Positions 19,395-30,719 of a stretch of DNA of 64,000 nt are shown one piece after another. A model generated the notes under the pieces. That model did not search any database, was not told the origin of the DNA, and worked only from the letters and a program-made list of their open reading frames with translations. The translations under genes were made by a program, and so were the position numbers. The DNA lies in NCBI RefSeq assembly GCF_013282725.1, contig NZ_CP054043.1:3658001-3722000 (forward strand), in the 5' to 3' direction. Positions within the stretch are counted from its first letter, which is position 1, and every line of letters starts with the position of its first letter. The DNA is from Yersinia mollaretii ATCC 43969. GTDB lineage: Bacteria > Pseudomonadota > Gammaproteobacteria > Enterobacterales > Enterobacteriaceae.

Positions 19395-21394
19395 ACGTGA
19401 TAGTCGTCCGTTGAGGTTTCACCCAGTTCAAGTACCGCGCCACGCAAGAAGAAATCCAATGTTTCTGTGACGGTTTGCTGCAAAGCGACCTCAGGTTGCC
19501 AATGTAAAATGCGGCGCGCATTACGAATACTTGGCGTGCGGTACTCTACGTCCTGATAGCCCTTCCCGTAATATGCACTGCTTTCAATATCTTTAAAGCC
19601 AGCAAAAGGTGGGAAATGGTCGCGCAATTCATGTTTTTCGAAACTGCTCAGCAGCATTTCAGCTAACTCGCGAATACTGGCTTCATTGGTTGGGTTACCA
19701 ATATTGATGATTTGCCCATCACAGCAGCCATCACGGTTCTCAATAATGCGGAATAAGGCTTCGATACCGTCATGAATATCCGTAAAGCAGCGTTTTTGTG
19801 CGCCGCCATCAACCAATTTAATCGGGGAACCTTCGACCAGATTTAAAATAAGCTGAGTAATGGCACGGGAGCTGCCAATACGCGCCGCATCAAGATTATC
19901 TAACCGTGGCCCCATCCAGTTGAAAGGACGGAACAGAGTGAATCTGAGATTTTCTTTTGCGCCATAAGCCCAAATTACGCGGTCCAGTAATTGCTTGGAT
20001 ACCGAATAGATCCAACGCTGCTTATTAATTGGCCCAACAATCAGTCGCGAACTGTCTTCATCAAACTCTTTGTCATCACACATACCATAAACTTCAGACG
20101 TGGACGGGAAGACAATACGCTTATTGTATTTAACGCAATCACGCACGATCTTTAGATTCTCTTCAAAATCTAATTCGAATACTCGCAGCGGGTTGCGGGT
20201 ATATTCAATCGGCGTAGCAATAGCCACCAAGGGCAAAATAACATCACATTTTTTAATGTGGTACTCAATCCATTCAGAGTGAATACTGATATCCCCCTCC
20301 ACGAAATGGAAATAAGGGTTATCCAAGAAGCGGCTGATGGCATCAGAGCCAATATCCAAACCATAGACTTCGTAACGATCATCGCGTAATAAGCGCTCGG
20401 TTAAGTGATTCCCAATAAAGCCATTCACCCCGAGAATTAACACTCGAGTCCGTCTTTTTAGGGTTTTGCTGGGTTTTTTCGCTAAGCGCACGTCGGTCAC
20501 AATGCCCATCTCGAGCGCCAGACGGTTGCCCTGAACATATAAACCACTTTCACCTTGGCCAGTGATAATCTCCAATGCCCCTTCACCACAGGCCACAACC
20601 AGAGGTGAGGTCGACAGCACAGTGCCGGGTAGCTTTCCGTGTACCACATTCAGTGGACGTGAACGCCAAATGATCAGCTTTCGCTGTCCAAGATAGCTGA
20701 AAGCACCGGGATAAGGTTCTGTCACCGCGCGCACCAGATTATTGATGGTGGATGCTGAGTTATGCCAATGAATCTCGCCATCAGCGGCGGTGCGACGACC
20801 AAAATAGCTGGCTTCAGCTTCATTTTGCGGAGTCAGATGCAGTGGTGCGCCTTTCATTTTAGGCAATAAATCACGCAGCAACTCTCGGGAGGCTTCGTGC
20901 ATTTTCCCATGCAATGTTAATGCAGTGTCTGTATCACTAATCGTGACTTTATGTTGACCCACAATCGGGCCTGCATCGGCTTTTTTTACCATTTGGTGCA
21001 GGGTCACACCGGTTTCAGTTTCCCCGTTCACCAGCGCCCAATTAATTGGCGCACGGCCACGGTATTTAGGTAACAGGGAGCCATGTAAATTAAATGCACC
21101 ACGTGGCGCTGATGATAAAATATCGTCACACAGCATATTGCGATAATAGAAAGAGAATATGATATCAGGCTGTAATTGCTGAATACGCTCAATCCATAGT
21201 GGATGGTTAACCTCTTCCGGCGCAAATACAGGTAAATCTAAGTCAGCGGCGACACGTGCCACTGAAGAGAAAAAGCGATTTTCATTAGGATCATCAGTAT
21301 GGGTAAATACCGCCTGAATATCGTAACCCGCATCAACCAGTGCTCTCAGACCTACACAGCCAATATCATGATAGGCAAATACAATCGCTTTCAT
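19391..21394 (-). CDS. arnA: Bifunctional UDP-Ara4N formyltransferase / UDP-GlcA decarboxylase ArnA
   Basis: 667 residues with two fused domains. Residues 1-300 are a 10-formyl-THF transferase with [16 protein letters not shown] near 100. Residues about 315-667 are an NAD-dependent UDP-glucuronate decarboxylase with the Rossmann motif [19 protein letters not shown] near 432 and the catalytic YSVSK near 463. The enzyme makes UDP-Ara4O, which ArnB aminates, and then formylates the product. All expected catalytic motifs are retained. Four-base overlaps link it with arnC and arnD. Confidence 0.97.
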
Positions 21395-22374
21395 TTTTCT
21401 ATTTCCTGATTATTTTCGGTCTGCTCACCGCCGACCACTTTCTGTATGAAATAACGTGGGCGTGCACGTACATCGTTATAAATACGGCCGATATATTCAC
21501 CGAGTAGCCCCATCCCCACAAATTGGGCACCGATGAACATGAACAGCACGGCAAATAGCGTAAAGACACCACCGCCGGCCCATTCGGGGCCAAAAACTAA
21601 ACGTAAAACCACTAACAGCACGGCGAGTGTGAAGCCGGAAAGTGCGATCACACTGCCGACCAAACTGAGCAAACGCAGTGGCGTCGTTGTCAGGCAGGTA
21701 ATCAAGTCATACATCAGATTGATAAGCTTCATCAGACTGTATTTTGAGTCACCAAATTCGCGTTCGGCATGATGAACCGTAATTTCAGTGGTGCGGCGAG
21801 CGAAGGTATTCGCCAGAATAGGAATGAAGGTACTACGTTCGTGACAGTGTAACATTGCTTCGACGATATGGCGGCGATAGGCGCGTAACATGCAGCCATA
21901 ATCCCCCATCGATTTCCCCGTCGCGCGTTGAATCATCATGTTGATCATGCGGGAGGCTGTTTTGCGAAACAGTGAGTCCTGACGGTTTGCACGCACGGTG
22001 CCGACGACGTCATACCCCTCTTCCGCTACGGCGACCAGACGAGGGATCTCTTCTGGTGGATTTTGCAAATCAGCATCAAGTGTAATGACTAAATCGCCGC
22101 TAACCTGATTGAATCCCGCCATAATGGCCGAGTGCTGACCATAATTACGGTTGAGCAAAACGGCAATAATGCCGCTATCAGGCTCATTAGCCGCCGCAGT
22201 CAAAATATCAGCGGAGTTATCACTGCTACCATCATCAACCAAAATAATTTCATAAGGCTGAGTCAGTAATTTACAGGCTGCCGATGTTCTCTCTATTAAT
22301 GCCGGCAAACTCTCTTGCTCGTTATAAACAGGGATAACAACGGAGACTTTTTTGATTTTTTCATTTTGTGACAC
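21391..22374 (-). CDS. arnC: Undecaprenyl-phosphate 4-deoxy-4-formamido-L-arabinose transferase ArnC
   Basis: 327 residues, GT2 glycosyltransferase. It transfers Ara4FN from the UDP-sugar to undecaprenyl phosphate at the cytoplasmic face. The motifs [15 protein letters not shown] near 13, VDDGSSDNS near 46 and [12 protein letters not shown] near 98 form the nucleotide-sugar site. Two C-terminal membrane helices lie at about 235-260 and 270-295. It overlaps arnB by 14 bases and arnA by four. Confidence 0.96.
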
Positions 22375-23515
22375 GGTGCGACCCTATAATCGTTGTCAGT
22401 GCATCAACCACCCGATCAACATCGCTATCCAGCATGTCGGGAAAAAGGGGCAATGTGCATAATCTGGCCGAATTCCATTCGGTATTGGGTAAACTCAGTT
22501 GCGGGAAACGTTCGCGATAATATTTTTGGGTATGCGCCGCGCGAAAATGTAAGCCAGTACCAATCCCTAACTCTTTTAGCTGCGCCATCAATAAATCACG
22601 GCTAATACCACAACTGTCCTCATCGACACGGACCATAAATAGATGCCATGCATGTTGATGGGGATAATAAGGAACAGCCAGTGGTTGCAAGGGCGAATCC
22701 GCTAATGCCGCATGATAACGAGCGACTAATGCTTGGCGGCGGGCGTTGATTTCAGGTAAGCGCCGCAGTTGAACAACAGCAATAGCGGCGTGAATATCAG
22801 ATAAATTGTACTTATAGCCTGGTTCGACAACCTCAGCTTGCGGGCTACGCCCCTGAATCTGGCGATCAAAGGCATCCACACCCAAGCCATGAAACTTGAG
22901 CCGACGAACTTTTGCCGCTAACTCATCATCGTCAGTAGCAATTAAACCGCCCTCAGCACAGGTCATATTTTTGATAGCATGGAAAGAGAAAATCGCCGTG
23001 CCTTTTTCACCAACCCATTGATTCCCATAGCGAGTACCGGCAGCATGGGCCGCGTCTTCAATCAGTGGAATCCCCCGTTTCAGGGCAATAGCTCGCAAGG
23101 CATCAAGATCACAAGGTGCACCCGCGTAATGCACGGGAATAATAGCTTTGGTTTTCGGTGTTATCGCCGCTTCAACATCAGCGGCACTGACCATTAATGT
23201 GTCGCGATCAACATCCACCATGACTGGCTCCGCGCCCAGTAACACAATCATGTTGAGTGTTGAAACCCACGTTTGCGACGGCGTAATCACTTCATCGCCC
23301 GGACCAATCCCCAAAGCCATCAGGGTGATATGCATCCCCGCAGTCGCTGAGCAGACAGCAACCGCATGTTTGCATCCAAATGCAGCGCAAAAATCAGTCT
23401 CTAACTGCTGATTTTGTGGCCCGGTGGTGATCCAACCCGAGCCGAGGACATTGACGACCGCATTAATTTCATCTGTACCAATCGCGGGGCGTGAAAAAGG
23501 CAAAAAACTCTGCAT
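22361..23515 (-). CDS. arnB: UDP-4-amino-4-deoxy-L-arabinose aminotransferase ArnB
   Basis: 384 residues, a DegT/DnrJ/EryC1-type PLP enzyme that aminates UDP-Ara4O using glutamate. The PLP-binding region shows [12 protein letters not shown] near 157 and [14 protein letters not shown] near 182 with the internal-aldimine Lys. It is the first gene of the seven-gene operon arnBCADTEF. TAGGGA precedes the start. Expression is likely PmrA-dependent because of the operator at 23631-23650. Confidence 0.96.
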
Positions 23516-29809: not shown

Positions 29810-30598
29810 TTAACGAATAATGCCCCTTGCTGAGCGGGAAAAGAAAGGCTTATAAGCGTGCAAAATTTGCCACTCTTTCGCGAGAAGCTCAATTTCAATA
29901 TTGACGTCTGCCACCTGCTTACCGGCATGATAAATAAGCTGATACGCGTTTTTAACCGCTAGCCCATCGCGGCTTTCCAGCCAATCAAGCCCAATGGCTA
30001 AATCCCTGACTCCCACCGGCGCAGCACGATTACCTTCAGCAATAACATAAGGAGGGATGTCTTGCACAACACAGGAACCCGTGTTGACTAGTGCATGAGT
30101 ACCAATGACACAAAACTGATGTACAGCACTTGCTGCGCCAATAATGGCGGAATCATCGACTTCAACGTGCCCTGCTAGCCCCACATTCGACTCTAATAAG
30201 CAATTATTACCAATTACGCAGTCATGACCAATATGCACATGACTCATCAGATTATTATCATCACCAATACGTGTAATACCGATCCCTTGTACTGTACCGC
30301 GATGAATGGTGACATTTTGCTGAATCAAATTGCGATCACCAATAATAACCCGAGTCTGTTCACCCTGATATTTAAGATCCTGATTAACCTCACCAATGGA
30401 GGAAAACTGCCCAATATTATTGTCACACCCAAGATCGGTAATACCATTAATGACAATATGTGATTTAAGTACCGTGCCAGAACCAATAGTGACTTGAGCG
30501 CCAATGTGACAAAAGTGACCAATTTGTACATTCGCACCAATCACCGCTCCCTTCTCAATAATTGCAGAAGCAGAAATTATCGCGGTGTTATCAATCAA
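29810..30598 (-). CDS. LpxA-family acyltransferase paralogue with altered substrate residues
   Basis: 262 residues from a TTG start at 30598, which aligns LIDN with MIDK of E. coli LpxA and gives the same length; a GTG at 30628 would add ten residues. The left-handed beta-helix hexapeptide repeats, the IGEVNQDLKYQGE signature, VTIHRGTVQG and the catalytic His125 in HIGHDC are kept. From my recollection of E. coli LpxA, the ruler position Gly173 is Thr here. The sugar-contact motif GVNIEGLKRRGF is replaced by GVRDLAIGLDWL. It stands alone, away from lpxD-fabZ-lpxA-lpxB. It is therefore an acyl-ACP acyltransferase relative with likely changed acyl length or sugar; the precise reaction is unknown. 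Confidence 0.85.
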   Translation of the reverse strand: MIDNTAIISASAIIEKGAVIGANVQIGHFCHIGAQVTIGSGTVLKSHIVINGITDLGCDNNIGQFSSIGEVNQDLKYQGEQTRVIIGDRNLIQQNVTIHRGTVQGIGITRIGDDNNLMSHVHIGHDCVIGNNCLLESNVGLAGHVEVDDSAIIGAASAVHQFCVIGTHALVNTGSCVVQDIPPYVIAEGNRAAPVGVRDLAIGLDWLESRDGLAVKNAYQLIYHAGKQVADVNIEIELLAKEWQILHAYKPFFSRSARGIIR

Positions 30599-30719
30599 GC
30601 TATTTAACTCTCTAGATAGAGGACTCACTTTACAACTTTGTGGGTAACTTTAGCGTCAACTAGGGACTAATCCATCCGTTGGTTTAATCAGATTTGCAGA
30701 TAAAAAAGATCACACAACT

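Follow-up and report, generated by a model that had tools for sequence, protein, structure and literature searches.

LpxA, the acyl-ACP--UDP-GlcNAc O-acyltransferase, starts the synthesis of lipid A (endotoxin), and the locus analysed here raises the question of what a second, stand-alone copy of such an enzyme may do when part of its active site has been replaced. The window, that is, the whole stretch of Yersinia mollaretii DNA under analysis, spans 64,000 nucleotides of a genome of 4.60 Mb in one contig. A sequence-only reading had described in it a stand-alone LpxA paralogue outside the lpx operon, with the LpxA signatures, the catalytic His125, Thr at position 173 and a stretch from which Asn198, Glu200 and Arg204 were lost; it interpreted the gene as a second acyltransferase that may use a shorter chain or another sugar nucleotide, possibly for a conditional modification of lipid A or a surface glycan. 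That observation is confirmed, and the interpretation is partly supported. The gene, lpxA2 (table), is an intact open reading frame, and its product is 56.5% identical to the housekeeping LpxA of the same genome over 262 aligned residues. It exceeds the cut-offs of both NCBIfam LpxA models (TIGR01852 and NF003657; 261.9 against 231.05 and 288.7 against 226). The housekeeping gene has an LpxD-like match about 0.9 kb away (C1:74988-75515); lpxA2 lies outside the lpx operon and adjoins dsbB. Its best named relatives are Yersinia proteins, with Y. bercovieri at the top (91%). The G+C content of lpxA2 is 43.7%, against 49.2% for the whole window; a foreign base composition was considered and rejected, the other 13 loci showing no single direction of G+C difference.

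An alternative in-frame GTG at 30628 would add 10 residues N-terminal to the TTG. The TTG is most likely the start, to judge from the aligned upstream regions, because genome G012 has a TGA inside the GTG-TTG extension of its lpxA2 and because a purine-rich, Shine-Dalgarno-like stretch precedes the TTG. The alignment of LpxA2 with E. coli LpxA (1lxa) is gap-free, and residue numbers counted from the TTG therefore equal the E. coli numbers; codon places were computed as 30598 - 3(n-1). No canonical residue is thus hidden by a misplaced gap, the changed residues stand, and an ordinary LpxA disguised by alignment error is ruled out.

Table. Features of the lpxA2 locus and the housekeeping lpxA of the same genome (codon numbers as in E. 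coli LpxA)
Feature	Position	Strand	Remark
lpxA2 coding sequence, 262 aa	29810..30598	-	TTG start at 30598, stop 29810-29812
Codons 74-76, Asp-Leu-Lys, catalytic/GlcNAc face	30371..30379	-	Kept; invariant in 76/76 aligned rows
Codon 125, catalytic His	30224..30226	-	Kept (alignment)
Codons 143-144, Gly and His	30167..30172	-	Kept (alignment)
Codons 160-161, His and Gln	30116..30121	-	Kept (alignment)
Codon 173, acyl-ruler position	30080..30082	-	Gly to Thr (alignment)
Codon 191, ruler His in E. coli	30026..30028	-	Arg here and in 14/14 Yersinia; ruler role from passages of PMC7072397
Codons 198-205, former UDP clamp	29984..30007	-	Asn198, Glu200, Arg204 and Arg205 all lost (alignment)
Upstream dyad ATTAAACC-N7-GGATTAGTC	30665..30688	-	Lies 67-90 bases upstream of the TTG; putative operator or RNA hairpin
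Housekeeping lpxA	G000:C1:73357-74115		Same genome

The LpxA trimer holds three active sites, each between two subunits, one of which gives the A face and the next the B face. In the passages of PMC7072397 on ligand contacts, the UDP pocket belongs to the A face, together with part of the acyl tunnel; the GlcNAc pocket and the catalytic base belong to the B face. For the P. aeruginosa complexes these passages have the Asn/Glu/Arg/Arg group (here the UDP clamp) contacting uracil and phosphate, and a GlcNAc pocket formed (E. coli numbers, +4) by Asp74, Leu75, His125, His144, His160 and Gln161, with Lys76 on the 6-OH. The paper adds that the uridine is placed differently in E. coli LpxA, for which its Table 1 nevertheless lists Asn198, Arg204 and Arg205 as residues of the UDP pocket. 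Residues 196-207 of the window LpxA2 read GVRDLAIGLDWL, against GVNIEGLKRRGF in E. coli LpxA, so that with Arg198, Leu200, Leu204 and Asp205 none of the four clamp residues is left. The E. coli-type acyl ruler (Gly173/His191) is also absent, the positions being Thr173 and Arg191. Conversely, Asp74, Lys76, His122, His125, Gly143, His144, His160 and Gln161 are all present, and all eight are invariant in the 76 aligned rows. Two elements of the sequence-only reading need revision here. Positions 198-205, taken there as sugar-binding, belong by the cited contacts to uracil and phosphate; and since the whole GlcNAc pocket is kept while these contacts are lost, the residues suggest an absent grip on UDP and not another sugar.

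To express this contrast in numbers, face sets were taken from the E. coli Table 1 of PMC7072397 (A: 116, 118, 134, 152, 170, 198, 201, 204, 205; B: 73-76, 125, 143, 144, 161, 162), and were extended by the acyl and ribose contacts of the P. aeruginosa enzyme, renumbered by +4 (A: 136, 137, 155, 156, 173, 200, the last from Glu196; B: 122, 140, 142, 158, 160). For E. coli, Table 1 gives a Glu at 201, but the sequence places Glu at 200 and Gly at 201, and the A set includes 200 as well as 201. Compared with the LpxA of its own genome, the window LpxA2 keeps 2/15 A-face residues and 12/14 B-face residues. The same holds across 28 paralogues, 14 from Yersinia and 14 from other genera: of the Table 1 sites, those of the B set are retained throughout (mean 1.00) and those of the A set in 20%, and with the full sets the values are 86% for B and 18% for A. 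Restricting the count to positions with a conservation of 95% or more across the 48 housekeeping rows leaves 168 sites, at which the paralogues keep the LpxA residue in 66% of cases; the value is 20% for the 13 A sites among them and 92% for the 13 B sites. Of 20000 random site sets, none fell as low as A and 43 rose as high as B. The one-sided loss is independent of the 198-205 loop, because the nine A sites before residue 190 are 21% kept, against 72% for the region (2 of 20000 draws as low). Site rates agree. They are 1.75 for A, 0.15 for B and 0.98 for the rest in the 28 paralogues, and 1.90 for A and 0.22 for B in the Yersinia paralogues alone; housekeeping LpxA evolves slowly on either face (A 0.22, B 0.32, rest 1.14). 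Adding 75 database proteins to the 14 non-Yersinia second copies, with the short P0133 and P0198 dropped, made a set of 89 sequences, whose quick tree gave A 1.83, B 0.10 and rest 0.88. The most rapidly changing run of 12 residues in the paralogues is 199-210. Across the 28 paralogues, then, the A face (UDP and acyl ruler) has decayed and the B face (catalysis and GlcNAc) is nearly intact.

The clamp is lost at all four positions in 14/14 Yersinia LpxA2. Over the 28 paralogues Arg205 is lost in 28, Arg204 in 27 and Glu200 in 27, with Asn198 retained in 12/14 non-Yersinia copies. The B face has an exception in Thr140, changed in 28/28 paralogues (to Gly in 26), and position 142 is Ala in 27/28, the housekeeping rows having Gly in 36 and Ala in 12. 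In the C-terminal domain, Lys220 and Arg224, each with a conservation of 95% or more in LpxA, are missing from no fewer than 27/28 paralogues, the latter position being His in 24/28; this loss might bear on ACP docking, and if these are docking residues, donor use could differ. The predicted structure of LpxA2 has a mean pLDDT of 80.8 with E. coli LpxA as top Foldseek hit, at TM 0.40 and rmsd 12.8, and for that reason the global shape of the model is not trusted and no conclusion here depends on it. The one-sided loss, the loss of Arg205, the change of His191 to Arg and the existence of the family outside Yersinia all go beyond what the sequence-only reading had noticed.

The branching pattern and the distribution of second copies indicate how far this family extends. 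Among 392 genomes of the same family, 317 of them with any match, at least 33 from at least 12 genus codes had two or more matches at E <= 1e-40; at least four of the 33 were Yersinia, among six Yersinia drawn. Re-searching 12 of the 29 non-Yersinia double-match genomes recovered a second copy in 12/12 (14 copies, 11 genera), and all 14 were aligned. Outside the family, an order-wide search of 394 genomes gave at least three two-copy genomes, all of one genus code. The LpxA pairs of these three (L203-L208; family f8, genus g230) are tandem and were considered as LpxA2 but rejected, both members keeping Asn198, Arg204 and Arg205; in every pair, position 76 of one protein is Lys or Ser and its position 200 is Val, Lys or Arg, and these adjacent genes represent an unrelated duplication. 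A 57-row tree of LpxA and its non-operon homologues places the 14 Yersinia and 14 other second copies in one clade (100/99) against 29 housekeeping rows, with the Yersinia and non-Yersinia subsets each on one side of a branch (100/100 and 86/61), although some rows have long branches and a degree of attraction is possible. A common origin is further indicated by the derived residues Gly63 (26/28), Gly124 (27/28) and Gly140 (26/28), which occur in 0/48 housekeeping rows. A recent duplication of Yersinia LpxA is not favoured, the paralogues branching outside Yersinia LpxA and joining the second copies of other genera. The gene is present twice in each of two genomes, G071 (L188, L189) and G202 (L193, L194); L189 branches off before all other non-Yersinia copies, and its identity to the window LpxA2 is 55.7%.

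A collection of 224 proteins likewise splits without intermediates into 87 with at most 2/6 clamp and ruler residues, the window protein included, and 137 with at least 5/6; all seven catalytic residues tested are kept in 87/87 of the clamp-less group. Most of the 87 are unnamed. Source names among the rest include Scandinavium, Buttiauxella, Serratia, Lelliottia, Budvicia, Rahnella, Ewingella, Hafnia and Rouxiella, and the named proteins carry LpxA-type (UDP-GlcNAc acyltransferase) names. One lpxA2-type protein (P0183) is filed under Campylobacter jejuni, a likely mislabelled or contaminated assembly. For alignment, A2 comprised 40 of the 224 proteins, picked by hand, and P0003, a 411-aa chimera of repeated E. 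coli-like LpxA segments, was dropped from A1 and A2.

Within Yersinia, lpxA2 is found in 14 of 25 species-representative genomes (72-100% identity) and is absent from 11. A full-length housekeeping LpxA match is present in 24/25, as is DsbB, and lpxA2 adjoins dsbB in 14/14 carriers. The exception for LpxA is the draft genome G020, whose housekeeping lpxA (L149, G020:C128:18103-18911) has a frame broken in two and was left out, so that 24/25 housekeeping sequences were used. Since lpxA should be an essential gene, this break is probably a sequencing error; the collected proteins include an intact LpxA of Y. rohdei (P0108). In the 10 non-carriers with a dsbB locus, tblastn of that locus with a 1500-base flank found no lpxA2 remnant. 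On an nhaB-dsbB tree of 24 genomes the presence of lpxA2 needs five gains or losses, a number that shuffled labels matched or undercut in 15 of 500 trials. The nhaB-dsbB tree reproduces the paralogue groups G000/G005, G008/G012, G003/G010, G013/G019/G023 and G007/G018, the last of which there encloses the non-carrier G004, and this recurrence fits vertical descent with repeated loss. The five changes are most simply read as repeated losses, so that any effect of LpxA2 is dispensable. Presence also seems to vary within Y. enterocolitica, as lpxA2 (YE2286) stands in a table in PMC3079665 of genes absent from strain W22703, an entry that gives no function.

The gene is nevertheless under constraint. 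The frame is open in 14/14 Yersinia copies, and the 14 other second copies contain no stops. Median pairwise omega (Nei-Gojobori) is 0.120 for lpxA2 (14 paralogues, 91 pairs), against 0.033 for housekeeping lpxA in 13 of the same 14 genomes (78 pairs). By region, lpxA2 gives 0.095 for residues 2-190, 0.216 for residues 191-213 (43 usable pairs) and 0.163 after residue 213; LpxA2 is therefore constrained, and least so in the former UDP loop. Open frames and omega together rule out a pseudogene, and the stop in G012 sits in the optional N-terminal extension. A tblastn search gave no sign of plasmid or phage carriage: all matches, among the best 15 of 59 plasmid records and 11 phage records, were below 60% identity, and the listed rows with named features were lpxA, with lpxD in two phage records.

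The genomic surroundings offer no constant companion. No partner family occurs in more than 3/14 loci (13 non-Yersinia loci and the window; the contig of G397, too short, was left out), and by eye no sugar or acyl pathway lies near them. Three non-Yersinia loci share a site adjoining a divergent membrane-protein gene, which by eye we take to be phosphoethanolamine transferase-like; another three share what is presumably the argS-flhE region. The other seven and the window have no neighbours in common. In the window, genes that by eye we take to be arnC- and arnB-like (aminoarabinose modification of lipid A) lie at 21391-23515, 6 kb from lpxA2, with presumed btu-, fadR-, nhaB- and dsbB-like genes in between.

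Upstream of the gene, an inverted ATTAAnCC-N6/7-GGnTTAAT pattern (at most two mismatches) begins about 80-96 bases before the aligned start in 13/14 Yersinia and 4/13 other loci, and is not seen in the remaining 10. For each of these 17 loci the dyad score was matched in 0 or 1 of 200 dinucleotide shuffles, statistics that are flattered because the pattern was devised after the sequences had been viewed; with a stricter pattern the genome contains one match, the window dyad itself (G000:C1:3688665-3688688). The dyad could serve as an operator or as a leader hairpin that travels with lpxA2. By eye, several non-Yersinia copies (L187, L191, L196, L197, L198 and others, mostly at different chromosomal sites) also share, 100-250 bases upstream, an A/T-rich stretch like GTTCAnAAAATAAATAAAATATA followed by a TATGCT-like element, and outside Yersinia the gene looks as if it travels with its own promoter. 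Another conserved upstream stretch, GCTGTGTAAyGT..GGAGTGTACGAyG.., occurs in G001, G003, G007, G010, G013, G018, G019, G020 and G023 and is absent from the window; in G001 and G020 a 118-aa gene is still present beyond it.

How could selection hold one face of a shared site and release the other? The A face drifts while the B face stays fixed, and for this reason we read the site as half used. Our tentative proposal, based on sequence comparison and given a probability of about 0.42, is that LpxA2 is a half-site subunit that would enter mixed trimers with LpxA, likely tuning the amount or the acyl pattern of UDP-acyl-GlcNAc. Because a site needs the A face of one subunit and the B face of the next, a homotrimer of LpxA2 would be without any complete site. 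LpxA2 would instead lend its catalytic B face to the substrate-gripping A face of a neighbouring LpxA, and a trimer of two LpxA and one LpxA2 would hold one normal site, one hybrid site (A from LpxA, B from LpxA2) and one crippled site. A mixed trimer would explain why the face turned towards the partner subunit stays fixed while the other face of LpxA2 decays. From the observed residues, family, one-sided rates, purifying selection and stand-alone loci we infer trimer mixing, an active hybrid site and an effect on lipid A. The probability is held at this level because the A face outside Yersinia has partly settled on new residues. The changes at 140 and 142 of the B face, the loss of Lys220 and Arg224 and the dispensability seen in the repeated losses within Yersinia also weigh against the proposal.

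In the main rival scenario, somewhat less probable than the mixed trimer, LpxA2 would form homotrimers with an altered acyl pocket and act as an acyltransferase, or as an acyl-ACP hydrolase, on a nucleotide-free GlcNAc-like acceptor held by the B face alone. The partly settled A face is its strongest point: among the 89 non-Yersinia sequences Gly136 (82/89), Phe204 (75/89), Asp137 (62/89) and Asp173 (58/89) are new and near-constant, and Met156 (71/89) and Asn198 (67/89) are retained, as would suit a reshaped face. A catalytic set invariant in 87/87 and a stand-alone gene without a widely shared partner are equally in its favour. Within Yersinia the picture is the opposite. Position 173 is T in 7, I in 3, E in 2, M in 1 and L in 1 of the 14 copies, position 200 has five different residues or a gap, residues 199-210 are again the fastest 12-residue stretch, and 199-203 are deleted (five residues) in 3/14. 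A homotrimer with a new substrate should have fixed new A-face residues, so the unfixed A face speaks against such a substrate there, as far as sequences allow. The neighbourhoods, with families common to at most 3/14 loci and no sugar or acyl pathway seen by eye, likewise provide no nameable acceptor.

The main idea of the sequence-only reading, an ordinary second LpxA that acts on UDP-GlcNAc with a shorter hydroxyacyl chain, we consider unlikely. It draws support from the change at 173, a position that limits chain length in P. aeruginosa (Met, C10) according to passages of PMC7072397, and from Arg191 in all Yersinia copies. The altered ruler position thus stands, but no new ruler has settled, given five residues at 173 within Yersinia and a predominance of Asp elsewhere, and such variability within the family argues against the idea. 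So do the near-universal losses of Arg205, Arg204 and Glu200, yet Asn198 is mostly kept outside Yersinia. For Y. enterocolitica O:8, the lipid A passages of PMC3486919 describe a hexa-acyl form carrying four 3-OH-C14 chains at both 21 and 37 degrees C; LpxR deacylation additionally yields, at 37 degrees C, a tetra-acyl form that retains three of them. Because C14 chains are the only 3-hydroxy chains these passages name, LpxA2 is unlikely to be a dominant second chain-length enzyme in that strain, if expressed. About as improbable is a dominant-negative protein that poisons LpxA trimers and lowers lipid A synthesis, or an inert relict, for although the gene is missing from 11/25 Yersinia genomes with five changes on the tree and its omega exceeds that of the housekeeping copy, seven catalytic residues that neither a relict nor a pure poison needs are kept in 87/87, and the frames are open in 14/14 Yersinia copies and free of stops in the 14 others.

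If the mixed-trimer reading is true, LpxA2, with one face kept and the other lost, would offer a natural example of an obligate partner subunit, and LpxA activity, inhibitor response and annotation would have to be read differently in genera that carry lpxA2. Even if it fails, annotation needs care, as the named clamp-less proteins are labelled UDP-GlcNAc acyltransferases. In the open-access literature, which was the scope of our search (subscription papers lying outside it), no functional study of lpxA2 was found; in papers on the Y. enterocolitica cold response and on Y. pseudotuberculosis IscR, the passages that mention lpxA do not specify the copy.

Among known systems LpxA itself (TIGR01852, NF003657) is the closest, and LpxA2 resembles it in full length, gap-free alignment at 56.5% identity, catalytic and GlcNAc-pocket residues and model scores. 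It differs in that LpxA has the UDP clamp, the acyl ruler and a place in the lpx operon, and LpxA2 forms a separate clade. LpxA2 belongs to a sister family, likely a partner of LpxA, and, because the UDP clamp is lacking, is not filed here as an LpxA enzyme. YE2286 of Y. enterocolitica has the same kind of product name, and a Y. enterocolitica protein (P0006) is 83% identical to the window LpxA2; YE2286 is very likely the ortholog of the window gene. The proposed pairing has a parallel in trypanosome deoxyhypusine synthase and its inactive paralogue, neither of which is complete alone and which build the active site together; fold and pathway are unrelated. Nearer in pathway is LabP of Cronobacter sakazakii, compared here by its published description. 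According to passages of PMC5770445 it binds LpxA, giving no signal alone and roughly doubling the LpxA assay signal when mixed, and a 2025 review (PMC12444477) calls it LpxA-like (26.7%) in a passage allowing that a heterooligomer may exist. With 26.7% identity to LpxA, against 56.5% for LpxA2, LabP may by analogy be a possible precedent for a partner protein of LpxA.
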